A stretch of DNA of 64,000 bases. Origin: Planctomyces sp. SH-PL14. GTDB lineage: Bacteria; Planctomycetota; Planctomycetia; Planctomycetales; Planctomycetaceae. The stretch is from assembly GCF_001610835.1 (NCBI RefSeq), contig NZ_CP011270.1, positions 6,714,001 through 6,778,000 of the forward strand, in the 5' to 3' direction. The notes beneath the pieces are model-generated. The model was not told the origin of the DNA, searched no databases, and saw nothing but the letters and a program-made list of their open reading frames with translations. Below, piece by piece: positions 8,712 to 62,689 of the stretch. Every line of letters starts with the position of its first letter. Positions within the stretch are counted from its first letter, which is position 1. A program made the translations under genes and the position numbers.

Positions 8712-8863
8712 GGAGCATCCTTGCGGAGAGGCGGGAAACGGGGGCGCAGCCAATCATGTGGGATGGCGGCGGGGTGTCAATTGCTGGACGGGGGACTGGC
8801 CCTACGATTCCTGCGGGCGCGATCGATCTCGGATGACGTTGGGGAACCGTGCGCCTCCCAGCC

Positions 8864-9188
8864 GGGTCCAGGGGGACCCTGGTGGGGGATGCAAGGGGGC
8901 CACGCCCCCTTGCCCGCCGGAGGCCTGGCCGTCGAGAGATGTCTGAAGGCGTGAGTGTCCAAACGCGGACACCATGTCGGATGCCCCCTCACCAACCCGC
9001 GGGGATAGCAAAGCCAGCGGCGTGGGGTAGGGGAGTCCTCATCGCCGGTTCCACAAAGGGACACCCGTGACTTACCACGGTTCCTCACCGGAGCGCCTCC
9101 GGCGGCAAGGGGGTGAGACCCCCTTGACCCCAGGCTGCCGTGGCACGTTGGGTTTGAGCGGGCATCGTCGTGCCGGCAAGGGACGTGA
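8864..9188 (+). repeat. 330-bp structured interspersed repeat, copy 2 of 11
   Basis: Full length. First stem CCAGGG/CCCTGG with loop GGA; left-arm hairpin AAGGGGGCCACGCCCCCTT; central hairpin GTGTCCAAACGCGGACAC; right-arm hairpin AAGGGGGTGAGACCCCCTT. It lies 153 bp upstream of the helicase start and its 3' end is 76 bp from the stop codon of the next minus-strand gene. Confidence 0.95.
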
Positions 9189-9263
9189 TCTGAGCCGGTG
9201 ACGTATGACACGTCGCCTCACTGACCACCACTCGGTGAACACACCCGCACCATTCCCGACAAA

Positions 9264-10924: not shown

Positions 10925-11270
10925 CTCGAACCACGTCCTTGCCGGCACGACTATGCTAGCTCAAACCCAACGTGCCACGGTCGTCTAGGGTCAAGGGGGC
11001 CACGCCCCCTTTCCGCCGGAGGCACTTCCATCAGGAACCGTGGTAAGTAACGGATATCCCCTTTGTGGGACCAGCGTTGAGGACTCCCTCAAAATTCACC
11101 CCTGGCGATGCAATCCCCGCGGGTTGATGAGGGGGCATACGACACGTTGTCCGCGTCTGGACACGCACTCCTTCCCGTGATTTCCGACGAGAGGGCCTCC
11201 GGCGGGCAAAGGGCCATAAAAATAACGCAGGCCCCTCTGCACTCCCCACCAGGGGTACCCCCTGGACCCC
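10925..11270 (-). repeat. 330-bp structured interspersed repeat, copy 3 of 11 (long-loop subtype)
   Basis: Near full length, in minus orientation. First stem CCAGGGG/CCCCTGG (7 bp, loop GTA). The left-arm hairpin carries the long AT-rich loop instead of CAC. The right-arm hairpin is AAGGGGGCGTGGCCCCCTT. It is one of only two copies in a divergent promoter interval (start codons at 10787 and 11371), so it could affect dapL or amidase-like gene expression. The rest of the 583-bp interval shows nothing recognisable. Confidence 0.93.
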
Positions 11271-11370
11271 GCCAAATGACGTTATTAGGAATCGTTGCGT
11301 TCACCTCGCCCGCCCCCTAAAACGGGGCCGCATTCGACTGCCGTTCTGTCCCCGAAAGCTCGACCGTTCC

Positions 11371-13572: not shown

Positions 13573-13914
13573 TCGAGCCGCGGCCTTGCCGGCACGGCTC
13601 CCATAGCTCAAACCCAACGTGCTACGGCAGCTGGGGTCAAGGGGGAAACCCCTTGCCGCCGGAGGCGCTTCCATGAGGAACCGTGGAACACAACGGACGC
13701 CCGCTTTGTTGAGCCAGCCATGAGGACTCCCTCAATCTACCCCGCTCGCTTTGCAATCCCCGCGGGTTGGTGAAGGGGCATTCGGAACGGTGGCCGCGCT
13801 TGGACACGTGCTCCTTCAGACATCTCTCGAAGGCCAGGCCTCCGGCGGGCAAGGGGGCCAAGAAAACAACACAGGCCCCCTTGCATCCCCCACCAGGGTG
13901 CTCCTGGACCCGGT
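13573..13914 (-). repeat. 330-bp structured interspersed repeat, copy 4 of 11 (long-loop subtype)
   Basis: Full length, minus orientation. The left-arm hairpin has a 9-bp stem AAGGGGGCC/GGCCCCCTT around a 14-nt T-rich loop. The right arm is AAGGGGTTTCCCCCTT. The first stem has one mismatch. Its 5' end is 28 bp downstream of the stop codon of the co-directional gene at 13942. Confidence 0.94.
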
Positions 13915-13941
13915 TCTTGACGACGGAGTGGCAAGTGTCCT

Positions 13942-15923: not shown

Positions 15924-16157
15924 GACCGATACCTCGTGCCTGCGACGGACGGATGAAACAGGGGGAGACGGGCGGACCGACTGCGCACGAAACGGCGCAA
16001 GGGCGGCGTGGCTCAGTGGATGTTATCGTGCCCGGGAAACCCTCTTCAACGAAATCTTTGGTGGGACCGGGGGATTCGGCCGGAGATCTGTGGGAATGCT
16101 CGCTCTGTTCGGAACGTCCCGCACAAGGCGAATTGCTGGAAACGGTGGGATCCAGCT

Positions 16158-16350
16158 GGGTCCAGGGGCACCCTGGTGGGGGATGCAAGGGGGCAACTCC
16201 CTCTTGCCCGCCGGAGGCTTGGCCGTCGAGAGATGTCTGAAGGAGCACGTATCCAAGCGTGGACACCGTGTCGCATGCCCCCTTACCAACCCGCGGGAAT
16301 TGTACAGCGTGAGGGAGTCCTCAACGCCGGTCTTGTAATCCGGCGGTCCG
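16158..16350 (+). repeat. 330-bp structured interspersed repeat, copy 5 of 11 (3'-truncated)
   Basis: Contains the first stem (CCAGGG/CCCTGG), the left-arm hairpin (GGGGGCAACTCCCTC), the central hairpin (GTATCC/GGACAC) and CCGCGGG. Similarity fades after GAGTCCTCAACGCCGG near 16330, so the right arm and tail are missing. It lies between divergent start codons at 15923 and 16481. Confidence 0.88.
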
Positions 16351-16480
16351 TTCCAAACTCGGTCCGAAACCTGCGATCCATTGGACTTTTCGGATGGGGT
16401 GGGGCATGCTCAACGGGTGATCCGTGCGGGGATTCGGGAAAATCCGATCTCCGGCGCGGTCTCTCAGGGGAGTCAGACGC

Positions 16481-24733: not shown

Positions 24734-25096
24734 ATGCCGCGTCACATCCCGAAGCCGACCCGAATCGAAGCCGCCGGAACGCCGCCGAAGACGATCGAAG
24801 AGTTCGTGGGGCGGGTCAATTCCGCCACGGACTCCGTCAGCGTGGCCCGGATGGTGAGTCCTCAGGGTTGGAGTGAGCCGGGGCAGACGCCGGAGTTTGA
24901 CGAGTACACGGTGGTCCTGAAGGGATGTCTCCGTGTGGAGCATCGCGGGGGAACGCTCGATGTCCGGGCGGGTGAGGCGGTGATCACGAATGGCGGTGAG
25001 TGGGTGCGGTACAGCAGTCCCGAGGCGGGCGGGGCGGAGTACATTGCGGTTTGTCTTCCGGCGTTCTCACCGGCGACGGTTCATCGGGATGCGTGA
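24734..25096 (+). CDS. Small cupin-domain protein (120 aa)
   Basis: The ATG at 24734 is preceded by AAGAGGA. The sequence carries a single conserved beta-barrel: SPQGWSEPGQTPEFDEYTVVL followed by LDVRAGEAVITNGGEWVRYSSP. The usual HxH metal ligands of cupins are largely absent (D-E-Y in place), so it may bind a small ligand without metal catalysis. It is divergent from the glycosyltransferase gene, with start codons about 120 bp apart. Its stop codon is followed by repeat copy 6. Confidence 0.78.
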   Translation: MPRHIPKPTRIEAAGTPPKTIEEFVGRVNSATDSVSVARMVSPQGWSEPGQTPEFDEYTVVLKGCLRVEHRGGTLDVRAGEAVITNGGEWVRYSSPEAGGAEYIAVCLPAFSPATVHRDA

Positions 25097-25102
25097 TACC
25101 GC

Positions 25103-25433
25103 CCGGATCGCGTTCTTGCCGGCACGACTCGATAGCTCAAACCCAACGTGCCACGGCAGCCTGGGGTCAAGGGGGTCTCACCCCCTTGCCGCCGGAGGCA
25201 CTTCCGTGAGGAACCGTGGTAGACAACGGATGTCCCCTTCGTGGAGCCAGCGTTGAGAACTCCCTCAAAATACACCGCCTGCGACGTAATCCCCGCGGGT
25301 TGGTGAGGGGGCATACGACACGGTGTCCGCGTTTGGACACGATCTCCTTCAGACAGCTCCCGACGAGACAGCCTCCGGCGGGCAAGGGGGCGTGGCCCCC
25401 TTGCATCCCCCACCAGGGTGCCCCTGGACCCGG
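25103..25433 (-). repeat. 330-bp structured interspersed repeat, copy 6 of 11
   Basis: Full length, minus orientation. First stem CCAGGG/CCCTGG (loop GCA), left arm AAGGGGGCCACGCCCCCTT, central GTGTCCAAACGCGGACAC, right arm AAGGGGGTGAGACCCCCTT. It fills the gap between convergent genes: its 3' end is 6 bp from the cupin stop and its 5' end 20 bp from the phosphoglycerate mutase stop. Confidence 0.95.
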
Positions 25434-25453
25434 TGGTAGGGCCTTGTGACTGC

Positions 25454-26659
25454 TCAGGCGAAGAAGCGGCCCATCAGGTCGTGACCGTGAATCAGGACAT
25501 CCCCCGTCCCGGCCGCCGCAACTTCGTCGTACGTCCGCGCGCCATTATGACCAAAGCCCCGCCCGCACATCGTAAACGGCACAAACCCGTGGCTATGCGT
25601 CTTCGTCCGCAGGAACGTCGGATGGTCCGGCGACACCAGAATCCGATAGTCCCCCTGCTGCCGGAGATACTCGTGGACGGGACCGACGATCTTCTGGTCG
25701 ATCTCCTCGAGCGCCTTCACCTTCTCTCTCACATGCCCCTCATGAGAGGCCTCGTCGGTCGCCTCGACATGCACGACGACGAAGTCCGCTCCGGCCTGGA
25801 GCGTCTGGATCGCATGCCGCCCCTTGGCGGCATAGTCGGTGTCGAGGTATCCCGTCGCCCCCGGAACTTCGACGACGCTCCACCCGAGGAGCCGCCCAAT
25901 CCCGCGGAGCAGGTCCACCGCAGTAATGACTGCCCCCTGAACGCCGTACCGCTCCTTGAACGGCGTCAGCGACGGCGCCTTCCCCTGTCCCCAGAGCCAG
26001 ATCTGCGTGGCAGGAAGGTCGCCGCGGGCGATCCGGGCCGCGTTGACCGGCGATTCAGCGAAGATCTTCTGACTCTTCTCCATCAGCGCCCGTAGGTCGC
26101 AGGCGCCGCTCCCCATCGGAAGGTGCTCGGCGACCGCCTGATCGGTGATGTCGTGCGGCGCGACGGTGTGGGTGTCGTCCGAGAACGGGGCCTTCCGGTC
26201 GCGAGGCCGGTAGAGCAGGAGATTGCGGTAGCTGACGCCGGCGTGGAATTTCCAGTACTCGTCGCCGCAGCAGGCCTTCTGCATCTCGGTGATGAGGGCG
26301 GCACCGTCGCTGTTCGAGATCTGCCCCGAGGTGAAACTCTTCATCCGGCCGTTCTCGACCGTGACGAGATTGCAGCGGATGGCCCAGTCGTCCGGTCCGA
26401 GGGCGATCCCCTGCGCGGCCGCTTCAAGCGGCGCCCGGCCGGTGTGGAAGACGAGCGGGTCGTAACCGAAGAGGCTCATCGTGCCGACGTCGCTCCCGGA
26501 GGGGAGGGACTCGGGGACGTTGTCGGTGAGGCCGGTCATCCCATGGCGGGCGATCTCGTCCATGTTCGGGACGGAAGCGGCTTGGAGCGGTGTCAAACCG
26601 CCGAGCTCCGGCTGGGGTTCGTCTGCGCAGCCATCCGGGATAATCAGCACCGACTTCAT
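25454..26659 (-). CDS. apgM: 2,3-bisphosphoglycerate-independent phosphoglycerate mutase, archaeal type
   Basis: 401 aa, the normal size of ApgM. It has the alkaline-phosphatase fold hallmarks: IIPDGCADEP with the metal Asp at the start, SLPSGSDVGTMSLFGYDP with the nucleophilic Ser region, HVEATDEASHEGH and ILVSPDHPTFLRTKTHSHG. The enzyme interconverts 2- and 3-phosphoglycerate in glycolysis. Close relatives include phosphonopyruvate decarboxylase-related proteins, but the motif set fits ApgM. It is a single gene, with no gene in the 335 bp upstream of it. Confidence 0.92.
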   Translation of the reverse strand: MKSVLIIPDGCADEPQPELGGLTPLQAASVPNMDEIARHGMTGLTDNVPESLPSGSDVGTMSLFGYDPLVFHTGRAPLEAAAQGIALGPDDWAIRCNLVTVENGRMKSFTSGQISNSDGAALITEMQKACCGDEYWKFHAGVSYRNLLLYRPRDRKAPFSDDTHTVAPHDITDQAVAEHLPMGSGACDLRALMEKSQKIFAESPVNAARIARGDLPATQIWLWGQGKAPSLTPFKERYGVQGAVITAVDLLRGIGRLLGWSVVEVPGATGYLDTDYAAKGRHAIQTLQAGADFVVVHVEATDEASHEGHVREKVKALEEIDQKIVGPVHEYLRQQGDYRILVSPDHPTFLRTKTHSHGFVPFTMCGRGFGHNGARTYDEVAAAGTGDVLIHGHDLMGRFFA

Positions 26660-31436: not shown

Positions 31437-31504
31437 AGCCCTCAGCCGTCAGCTCAACGGACTGGGTGCATTCGCCGATTGGTGGTCGCCAAAGTTCGAC
31501 CACC

Positions 31505-31849
31505 GGGTCCAGGGGCACCCTGGTCGGGGATGCAAGGGGACCTGTGTTGTTTTTCTGGCCCTTTGCCCGCCGGAGGCCTGGCCGTCGAGAGATGTCTGAA
31601 GGAGAGGGTGTCCAAGCACGGACAACGTGCCCGGATGCCCCCCTCACCAACTCGCGAGGATTGCAACACCAGCGGTGTGGTATGAGGGAGTCCTCAATGC
31701 CGGTCCTACAAAGGGGACATCCGTTGTTTCCCACGGTTCCTCATGGAAGTGCCTCCGGCGGCAAGGGGGCGTGGCCCCCTTGACCCCAGGCTGCCGTGGC
31801 AAGTTGGGTTCGAGCTATGGGCGCTGCGCCGGCAAGGACGCGGTTGGAG
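31505..31849 (+). repeat. 330-bp structured interspersed repeat, copy 7 of 11 (long-loop subtype)
   Basis: Full length. First stem CCAGGG/CCCTGG (loop GCA); the left-arm hairpin has the T-rich loop TGTGTTGTTTTTCT; right arm AAGGGGGCGTGGCCCCCTT. Its 5' end lies 68 bp downstream of the co-directional oxidoreductase stop codon. Confidence 0.95.
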
Positions 31850-38810: not shown

Positions 38811-38831
38811 GCGTTACCGGCCCAAGAACCG

Positions 38832-39164
38832 GGGTCCAGGGGGAACCCCTGGTGGGGGATGCAAGGGGGCAACGCCCTCTTGCCCGCCGGAGGCCGTCTC
38901 GTCGAGAGATGTCTGAAGGAGCACGTATCCAAGCGCGGACATCGTGCCGTATGCCCTCACATCAACCCGCGCGGATTGCAAAGCCAGCGGCATCGGGTGA
39001 GGGAGTCCTCAATACCGGTACCGCAAAGGGGACGTCCGTTGCTTACCACGGTTCCTCGCCGGAACGCCTCCGGCGGCAAGGGGGCGTGGCCCCCTTGACC
39101 CCTGGCTGCCGTGGCACGTTGGGTTTGAGCTACGGGAGCCGTGCCGGCAAGGACGTGGTTCGAG
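38832..39164 (+). repeat. 330-bp structured interspersed repeat, copy 8 of 11
   Basis: Full length. First stem CCAGGGG/CCCCTGG with loop GAA; left-arm hairpin GGGGGCAACGCCCTC; right arm AAGGGGGCGTGGCCCCCTT; central stem has one mismatch (GTATCC/GGACAT). It starts 21 bp after the co-directional methyltransferase stop. The tail is one of the best preserved (GTGCCGGCAAGGACGTGG then TTCGAG). Confidence 0.96.
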
Positions 39165-52153: not shown

Positions 52154-52173
52154 AGGAACGTCGTCCTATACCG

Positions 52174-52496
52174 GGGTCCAGGGGGTAACCCCTGGTGGGG
52201 AGTGCAGAGGGGCAACGCCCCTTTGCCCGCCGGAGGCCGTCTCGCCGAGAGATGTCTGAAGGAGTGAGTGTCCAGGCGCGGACACGTTGTCGGATGCCCC
52301 CTCACCAACCCGCTGCGGATTCCAGTGCGAGCGCTGAGTCCTCAACGCCGGTTCCACAAAGCGGACGTCCGTTGTTTGCCACGGTTCTTCATTGAAGTGC
52401 CTCCGGCGGCAAGGGGGCGTGGCCCCCTTGACCCCAGGCTGCCGTGGCACGTTGGGTTTGAGCTATAGAGTCCGTCCGGCAGGGACGATCGCTTGA
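52174..52496 (+). repeat. 330-bp structured interspersed repeat, copy 9 of 11
   Basis: Nearly full length. First stem CCAGGGG/CCCCTGG with loop GTAA; left-arm hairpin GGGGCAACGCCCC; central GTGTCCAGGCGCGGACAC; right arm AAGGGGGCGTGGCCCCCTT. The tail is diverged (TCCGTCCGGCAGGGACGA). About 15 bp are missing in the middle (near 52325) relative to other copies. Confidence 0.94.
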
Positions 52497-59471: not shown

Positions 59472-59547
59472 GGAGTTTTCCCGTGAGTGGGTGACGTCTG
59501 GACTTGTAGGCCGCGCGTGCCTATCTGTCCATTGCGGATCAAGAACC

Positions 59548-59870
59548 GGGTCCAGGGGGACCCTGGTGGGGGATGCAAGGGGGCCACGCCCCCTTGCCCG
59601 CCGGAGGCCTGGCCGTCGGAAACCGTCGGAAGGAGCACGTGTCCAAGCGCGGACACCGTGCCGTATGCCCCTTCACCAACACGAGGGGATTGCAAAGCCA
59701 GCGATGTGGTTTGAGGGAGTCCTCAACGCGGGGACCACAAAGGGGACGTCCGTTGCTTACCACGGTTCCTCATGGAAATGCCTCCGGCGGCAAGGGGGTG
59801 AGACCCCCTTGACCCCAGCGGCCGTGGCACGTTGGGTTTGAGCTATGGGAGTCGCGCCGGCGAGGACGTT
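59548..59870 (+). repeat. 330-bp structured interspersed repeat, copy 10 of 11
   Basis: Full length. First stem CCAGGG/CCCTGG (loop GGA), left arm AAGGGGGCCACGCCCCCTT, central GTGTCCAAGCGCGGACAC, right arm AAGGGGGTGAGACCCCCTT. The 5' flank AAGAACC is shared with copies 4 and 8. Its 3' end is 3 bp from the stop codon of the minus-strand kinase gene. Confidence 0.95.
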
Positions 59871-61861: not shown

Positions 61862-62422
61862 ATGCTGCCAGAGCTGAGCCTCGTATTTCAGACGGAAAGG
61901 AAGACCAGCCTGCGGTTTCCGCTGCGGCCTGGTGTTCATCGAGTCGGCCGGGCCGCGGACTGCGATATTCATTTGATGCACATGTCGATTTCACGTGTGC
62001 ACGCGGTCATCACGCACTCGGGAGCGACCATTCGCGTGGCGGACCTCGGCAGCCGCAACGGGACGTTCGTGAACCACGAGCGGATCCAGGACTCGCCGCT
62101 GAAGATCGGGGATTTCGTCTCGTTCGGCCACGCACGGTGCGAGATCGTCGATATCGCGCAGGGGGACACAAACCGCCGGATTGCGTCCGATTCCACGATC
62201 GGCCCATTGCGGGACTCCAAGGATCTGTTCCCGATCGGAAAGCTCAGCCAGGCACAGCTGAAGGTCTTCTGGCTCCTGCTGGAGGCGAAGCGCGAACGGG
62301 AGATTGCCGAAGAGCTCCATTTGAGCCAGCACACCGTTCACAATCATGCCCGCAAGATCTTCGAGGTTCTCGAAGTGACCAATAAGGCGGAATTGATCAA
62401 AGCCTACGGCGGCCTGCGGTGA
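61862..62422 (+). CDS. FHA-domain protein fused to a LuxR-type HTH (186 aa)
   Basis: The FHA core is at residues about 5-95: GVHRVGRAADCDIHL, SISRVHAVITHSG and DLGSRNGTFVNHERI, so the phosphothreonine-binding Arg, Ser, His and Asn positions are present. Residues about 128-186 (LSQAQLKVFWLLLEAKRERE, then IAEELHLSQHTVHNHARKIF) match the GerE/LuxR DNA-binding helix-turn-helix. A fused phosphopeptide-reader and DNA-binding protein suggests transcription control by Ser/Thr kinase signalling. Its targets are unknown; the hairpin region immediately upstream and the kinase gene are candidates. Repeat copy 11 follows its stop codon. Confidence 0.9.
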   Translation: MLPELSLVFQTERKTSLRFPLRPGVHRVGRAADCDIHLMHMSISRVHAVITHSGATIRVADLGSRNGTFVNHERIQDSPLKIGDFVSFGHARCEIVDIAQGDTNRRIASDSTIGPLRDSKDLFPIGKLSQAQLKVFWLLLEAKREREIAEELHLSQHTVHNHARKIFEVLEVTNKAELIKAYGGLR

Positions 62423-62425
62423 ACT

Positions 62426-62689
62426 TGGCTGCCGGAAGCACTTCCATGTGGAATCGTGGAACACGACGGGCATCCGCTTTGTGGTACCGGCGTTGAGGAC
62501 TCCCTCAAAACACACCGCTGGCTTTGCAATCCCCGCGGGTTGGTGAGGGGGTATACGGCACGTCGTCCGCGTTTGGACACGCTTCACTTCAGACAGTGTC
62601 CGACGGCCAGACCTCCGGCGGGCAAAGGGCCAGAAAAACAACACAGGCCCCCTCTGCACTCCCCACCAGGGGCGAGCCCCTGGACCCCG
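62426..62689 (-). repeat. 330-bp structured interspersed repeat, copy 11 of 11 (3'-truncated, long-loop subtype)
   Basis: In family orientation it starts with the longest first stem (CCAGGGGC/GCCCCTGG, loop TC), the T-rich long loop in the left arm, and the central hairpin (GTGTCCAAACGCGGAC). The right-arm hairpin and the tail are lost: the sequence passes directly from GGAAGTGCTTCCGGC to the FHA gene end. It begins 4 bp after the stop codon at 62422. The remaining 270 bp to the next gene show nothing recognisable. Confidence 0.91.

Follow-up and report, generated by a model that had tools for sequence, protein, structure and literature searches.

Some 1,280 intergenic sites in the chromosome of Planctomyces sp. 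SH-PL14 are occupied by a structured, non-coding element of roughly 310 bases, whose copies are in linkage equilibrium beyond about 60 nt and whose hairpin tips stay complementary across many sequence versions. Our favored reading, which we hold with moderate confidence, is a non-autonomous mobile element of the MITE/REPIN-like kind, although larger and internally far better conserved than these, with hairpins that act single-stranded; copying would begin at its 3' end, and copies would be reshuffled with one another. In the window, the 64-kb stretch of DNA analyzed here, an nhmmer search with copy 6 as query recovered 11 copies of this ~313-nt element. Copy 6, the element under study, lies at 25105–25435 on the plus strand (core 313 nt). 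Copies 3 (10927–11271), 4 (13574–13915) and 11 (62387–62689; 5' end degenerate or missing, model 25–331) share its strand; copies 1 (2617–2945), 2 (8861–9190), 5 (16155–16356; 5'-truncated, model 119–332), 7 (31501–31845), 8 (38830–39162), 9 (52171–52488) and 10 (59544–59870) are on the minus strand. Each of the two hairpin patterns matched 11 times in the window, against 0.10 and 0.08 matches expected from shuffles, so chance does not explain these hairpins.

Read 5' to 3', the element opens with a left end that carries a CGTC-like tag. The left hairpin and the 5' arm of a long-range helix (P1) follow, then an interior with a central hairpin, the 3' arm of P1, the right and terminal hairpins and the end ACCC(C/G)G. 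In copy 6 (plus strand throughout), the tag reads CGTT and precedes a candidate left-end stem, GCCGGCACG / CGTGCCACGGC (25118–25157), proposed from the sequence. Tag columns 2–5 are conserved at 89, 94, 90 and 79%; the stem behind them is interrupted, with arms ~20 nt apart, and the last pair of GCCGGCACG/CGTGC displays no visible covariation in 181 copies. We regard it as a possible, weakly supported stem. The left hairpin GTCAAGGGGG-TCTCA-CCCCCTTGC (25166–25189) and the right hairpin GCAAGGGGG-CGTGG-CCCCCTTGC (25382–25404) were defined by pattern search and by tip alleles genome-wide. The P1 5' arm CGCCGGAGGC (25190–25199) pairs with the 3' arm GCCTCCGGCG (25371–25380). Between the arms lie ~160 nt that hold the central hairpin GTGTCC-GCGTTT-GGACAC (25323–25340; pattern search), whose inner 4 bp are best kept. 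The terminal hairpin CCAGGG-TGC-CCCTGG (25413–25427), followed by ACCCGG as the 3' end, was placed by alignment of copies. Inverted arms of ~35 nt are set back from the ends of the element, by some 60 nt on the left and ~30 nt on the right.

How well is this unit conserved? Our alignments contain the 184 copies that match both model ends; 69 of 253 matches were dropped, which favors conserved copies, and columns filled in under half of the copies were left out. In this set 103 of 313 columns reach at least 98% identity, mean pairwise identity is 83%, and the nearest sampled neighbor of each copy differs by 6–17%. Past ACCC, conservation is gone within about four bases. The left boundary is gradual: at −4 conservation still stands at 87%, and by −15 it has sunk to 40%, roughly the background level. 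Some copies carry a gradually fading upstream extension, GGCTTGTCCCGCTGGCTCGAACC. A coding function was rejected: the 43 variable columns within 81–260 split 15/14/14 over codon positions, without 3-periodicity, and the best frame of columns 81–260 is open in 146 of 184 copies. Rfam gave no match, either for the window at the gathering score or for 25000–25500 at E≤1.

The sample used for copy number, made up of the window and 80 stretches of 20 kb each, covers 1.664 Mb, or 19.7% of the 8.44-Mb chromosome. It holds 253 matches, 206 of which span more than 250 model positions, and extrapolates to ~1,284 copies per genome (about 1,280–1,300) and 4.4% of bases. Devoting 4.4% of a bacterial chromosome to one repeat is an unusual scale. 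Whole-genome motif counts were about equal on the two strands and gave 897 sites with up to two mismatches and, for GCCTCCGGCGGGCA of the P1 3' arm, 1,034 exact sites; reversed controls gave 0. The element is apparently restricted to this one genome. In overlapping sets of 30 relatives, 170 genomes of the family and 397 drawn from the class, none including a same-genus genome, only SH-PL14 matched; the element was not detected in the 169 other family genomes and 396 others from the class, with up to four candidates per genome scored in the family search and up to two in the class search, and with 149 and 376 of the matchless genomes, respectively, known as a bare count only. An exact-pattern scan of 84,980 species returned one Streptomyces match, and three viral contigs also matched by pattern; we attribute all of these to chance (by the model, the best Streptomyces score is 7.3 bits, E 0.019, and the viral contigs give nothing). 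Plasmid and phage records gave no match to the element, and among the papers listed by literature searches none describes it.

The sequence-only reading of this DNA had proposed that the hairpin stems are kept by compensatory changes, and in the window its description is largely accurate. The T:A to C:G exchange is present, with GGGGGT-CTC-ACCCCC in copies 1, 2, 6 and 10 and GGGGGC-CAC-GCCCCC in copies 3, 7, 8 and 9; what was called the right arm is the left hairpin once all copies share one orientation. Copy 4 carries a third left tip, GGGGGAAACCCC, and copies 5 and 11 have no left hairpin. As claimed, the terminal CCAGGG/CCCTGG stem is longer by one G/C pair in copies 3, 8, 9 and 11; mismatches shorten it in copies 1 and 4. 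Survival of the central GTGTCC/GGACAC stem in most copies was slightly overstated: all 6 bp are intact in only 5 of 11 copies, and the inner four (GTCC/GGAC) in 8, a number that rises to 10 once G.T pairs are counted.

Could two or a few founder versions, copied without exchange, account for this pattern, so that the apparent compensation is shared ancestry only? This explanation, named in the sequence-only reading as one that would undo its claim, fits the window: the left-hairpin exchange there amounts to two versions whose loops differ too, and these two tips account for 8 of the 9 window copies with a left hairpin. Genome-wide, linked non-complementary sites (280/281/286/287) likewise look like founder blocks. 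But among 181 copies the left hairpin comes in 39 inner-string types (TCTCA 49, CCACG 43, a GCAA type 23, CCTCG 17, and others), the right hairpin has 66 types in 182 copies, and T-CTC-A (49 copies) and C-CTC-G (17) have their loop in common and differ in the pair alone. A closing pair round a 3-nt loop was scored only for tips of odd length from 9 to 19 nt (116 of 181 left and 145 of 182 right copies), and it is Watson-Crick in 114 of the 116 and 140 of the 145. Counting distinct alleles, 8 of 9 left (of 39 types) and 30 of 35 right (of 66 types) are complementary, against means of 3.7 and 13.7 and maxima of 8 and 24 in 5,000 shuffles. Three pair types (C:G, A:T and T:A) combined with varying loops indicate more than two founders. 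Tip complementarity genome-wide is thus beyond a two-founder explanation, and clonal founders would moreover give linkage over more than 60 nt, which is absent (below). Founder copying is largely refuted genome-wide and holds only locally; as an account of the whole family we consider it very improbable.

Does complementarity of the tips amount to covariation of a structured RNA? The sequence-only reading looked to significantly covarying pairs in a genome-wide alignment for such support. In an R-scape-like test with a custom-made, tree-based null (not R-scape itself), no complementary pair was significant: the E values were 0.23 for 271–275, 1.07 for 67–71 and 1.12 for 266–280. The two pairs that did exceed the null, 281–286 and 280–287, are not complementary. 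For P1, with 10 bp counted, 169 of 184 copies have both arms perfect, 15 carry one-sided changes and none is compensated. Over 26 stem pairs in 184 copies we counted 93 single and 4 double changes, 3 of the latter complementary. Compensation is therefore largely confined to the hairpin tips, and of the proposed selection or gene conversion on a folded RNA or single-stranded DNA, the part that stands is that tips stay complementary genome-wide; P1 and the tree-based test give no compensation. A wobble strand test yielded 40 C>T against 15 G>A changes in stems and 162 against 187 at unpaired sites (Fisher P 0.0004); site 218 supplies 21 of the 40 stem C>T changes and P is 0.37 without it, so the result hangs on this site and we draw no evidence for RNA from it. 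Local linkage extends to ~30 nt and includes non-paired sites, so that block copying can mimic covariation within a hairpin. Selection on a single-stranded fold, block exchange and palindrome-templated correction would each be consistent with the kept tips.

The last of these would make the tips complementary without selection, through palindrome-templated correction or inversion during replication of a passive DNA repeat. Compensation is indeed found largely in short perfect palindromes and is unseen in the long-range P1 helix, and a long-loop allele is present in both orientations; but such correction fails to explain why P1, the 3' end and parts of the interior are conserved, and we consider it improbable as the full account.

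The copies seem to have swapped short tracts so often that a common family tree is gone. Over 76 variable sites, mean r2 falls from 0.20 at 1–3 nt to 0.024 at 16–30 nt, 0.009 at 31–60 nt and 0.005–0.006 beyond 60 nt, where permuted data give 0.005. All four gametes occur at a frequency of at least 5% in 478 of the 480 site pairs separated by over 60 nt, in 93 of 96 at 31–60 nt, 58 of 59 at 16–30 nt, 32 of 37 at 6–15 nt and 19 of 31 at 1–5 nt. Divergence is independent of genomic distance (0.1705 for 12 pairs under 2 kb, 0.1697 over 2 Mb), with the exception of one close pair in locus L062 at 6.4%. The variance of pairwise differences over all 76 sites is 32.5, against 17.9 under equilibrium, an excess caused by local blocks; once only 16 sites spaced by 15 nt or more are retained, it comes close to equilibrium (3.96 against 3.83), with an excess of about two sd (sd 0.07). 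Ten of 136 block pairs are associated at P <0.01, nine of them no more than 53 nt apart and one at 146 nt (site 127 with tip 271+275; P 4e-4, with 136 block pairs tested). Transversions make up 11 of the 30 sites with two common alleles, and multi-site block alleles, for example at 246–249 or 280–287, have few intermediates. A star-like, saturated history under site-specific constraint could also produce linkage equilibrium. It is the weaker account of the non-complementary local blocks, and it keeps a place because four gametes occur even at 1–5 nt, a finer scale than tract exchange easily explains.

Where in the genome does the element reside? By gene calls from a custom codon-usage script, 183 of 184 full copies lie outside predicted genes. 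Where the upstream gene is co-directional (n = 102), the 5' end sits a median of 14 nt past its stop; where the neighboring gene is convergent (n = 75), the 3' end sits a median of 27 nt past its stop. Median distances to gene starts are 101 and 126 nt (n = 79 and 106). Such a position behind stop codons could mean that insertions are tolerated there or that copies serve as gene ends. In the latter case most copies would be old and each selected, as terminators or stabilizers of mRNA 3' ends, and the covariation of tips would be true compensatory evolution. Besides the closeness to stop codons, several observations speak for such host use. In tandem gaps, copies are oriented with transcription 59 times against 32 (P 0.006). 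The 103 conserved columns are seldom mutated in full copies (mean 0.67%, maximum 4.9%). Folding is good, with z −4.8 against shuffles for copy 6, −4.5 for its reverse strand and −2.4 for another copy. But 47 of 181 classified copies sit between divergent genes, where a terminator serves neither gene; both strands of the tested copy fold about equally well; and no match was found in the 169 family and 396 class genomes, for each of which only a few best candidates were scored. We judge host use possible but unlikely.

Truncation is asymmetric. After sorting by hand, 27 lack the 5' end and 6 the 3' end (binomial P 0.0003); 2 of the 27 and 3 of the 6 score below 40 bits. The 27 remain from 39 rows, 12 having been set aside by eye (4 near a TACCCCTT-ended insert, 2 near another IS, 4 split or internally deleted with a partner, and 2 with an internal deletion), and the 6 from 17 rows, 11 having been set aside likewise (3 for an IS, 4 for TACCCCTT ends, 4 for partners). 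Among the 25 partial copies that start beyond model position 110, 16 differ at no more than 2% of conserved columns, which also suits host use, and 9 at 2.2–13.7%; their variable columns differ at 17–54%. The low change in the 16 suggests little decay since most insertions, unless the 3' half itself is maintained; some copies have decayed. Target duplications of at least 5 nt show no excess in 183 copies, by comparison of k-mers common to both 30-nt flanks with shuffles, and flank-shared k-mers of at least 7 nt occur in 3 of 183 copies, with about 6.8 expected.

On the mobile-element reading, the element would have spread to its intergenic sites in this one genome without an enzyme of its own. 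A putative mobilizing machinery would recognize the folded single strand, RNA or single-stranded DNA; copying would begin at the conserved 3' end and often halt early; and short tracts would pass between copies, through gene conversion or through a change of template while a copy is being made, and would carry hairpin-tip versions along as small blocks. In a bolder form of this reading, the element would be to a bacterium what SINEs are to eukaryotes. Its ~313-nt non-coding RNA would be copied in trans by a reverse transcriptase that starts at the 3' end, often stops short of the 5' end and switches templates between different element RNAs, and the outcome would be ~1,300 freely recombining copies in one chromosome. 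This we offer as speculation with a small chance of being right.

What enzyme could mobilize such an element? The SH-PL14 genome has two Y1 genes and five RVT_1 genes. Neither Y1 gene is flanked by element ends, the nearest copy being about 1.2 kb from one and none occurring in the 3.4-kb locus of the other, and a RAYT origin is not supported. One of the two (L077:1432–1935, RAYT-like) is bordered by its own short palindromes, CAACGCCCCAGG / CCTGGGGCGATGCCCCAGG. None of the five reverse transcriptase (RVT_1) genes, viewed in loci of 3.3–3.6 kb, is tied to the element. Loci L081 and L082 encode two similar-looking reverse transcriptases of 436–464 aa, which by eye we take to be retron-like; in L082 a full element copy ends ~0.3 kb upstream of the reading frame. 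The GIIM (group II maturase) domain has no match in the genome (3 of 14 controls were positive), nor is there an Rfam intron match, and a group II intron origin is likewise not supported. A search of the genome for a Y2 transposase, as expected for an IS91- or Helitron-like element, gave no match, and 14 control genomes gave none either.

Several copies are themselves interrupted or extended. An IS of ~1.47 kb, whose 460-aa transposase looks IS4-like by eye, lies within one of the two hairpins, left or right, at L039:12027–13493, L065:3449–4914 and probably L033 from 18759, bordered on both sides by ~11-bp hairpin repeats (GGGTCTCACCC / GGGTGTGACCC). Inserts with ends TACCCCTTT(A/C)AAGGT break the left hairpin at GGTCAAGGGG(G). 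They measure ~0.2 kb at L054:14700–14908 and L089:18863–19071; a longer, IS-like form of 1,453 bp, carrying a 476-aa ORF, is found at L090:11489–12941 and L060:8988–10439 (98.6% identical), the latter flanked by two oppositely oriented left halves, and at least the final 188 nt of this form recur at L095 from 19200. A second palindromic repeat (CGTCCCTGACGGGACT or similar) lies in or beside copies at L036:3232–3357 and L044:9579–9703 and upstream of L118:2588. A further ~105-nt 3' extension (GGGACAAATGATTCTGCGTTGCGCCGC...), 78–92% identical, is common to 5 of 95 copies (L038_2033, L056_9615, L056_13532, L058_14987 and L059_18812). Strongly diverged copies at L068:5459 and 6773, L087:18308, L098:7934 and L065:14839, some with another left hairpin such as CCAGCGGGACGCTGG, possibly form an older subfamily.

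The element behaves much as a REPIN or MITE does and, where its copies are 3'-anchored, much as a SINE does, while the full definition of none of these applies. RAYT-associated REPINs and REP-BIMEs are high-copy intergenic repeats with inverted hairpin pairs around a spacer, located near stop codons and serving as IS targets (PMC3733652, PMC3116915; see also PMC1525189). The present element resembles them in copy number, intergenic position, palindromic hairpins in inverted pairs with a spacer, proximity to stop codons and use as an IS target; it differs by its length of about 313 nt against 20–40 nt for REPs, which are palindromes bearing a GTAG or CGTC tag, its long conserved interior, the lack of element ends around either Y1 gene and the linkage equilibrium within it. 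Like MITEs of DDE insertion sequences it is short, non-coding, enzyme-less and provided with inverted arms; unlike them it has asymmetric ends, 5'-truncated copies and no excess of target duplications of at least 5 nt. Eukaryotic SINEs are about 300 nt long and present at very high copy number, with a conserved 3' end and variable 5' truncation. The element is like them in manner, not in membership, by its size, copy number, conserved 3' end and 5' truncation (27 against 6); unlike them it has no A-tail, no subfamily tree and no dedicated reverse transcriptase tied to it. ERIC, BOX/RUP, STAR and similar families are species-restricted structured intergenic stem-loop repeats (PMC2267715; see also PMC3049150, PMC3532100). 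Our element, too, is a structured intergenic repeat, apparently restricted to one genome; it has no Rfam match and, judged by the descriptions of these families, is a larger unit with a higher copy number.

What does such a family tell us about bacterial repeats? More surprising than the scale of this high-copy family is its linkage equilibrium beyond ~60 nt, since the family resembles a recombining population within one genome. In a repeat family, covariation and block exchange have to be told apart before one can claim an RNA. Viewed as a recombining intragenomic population, the origin and upkeep of bacterial repeats become testable.
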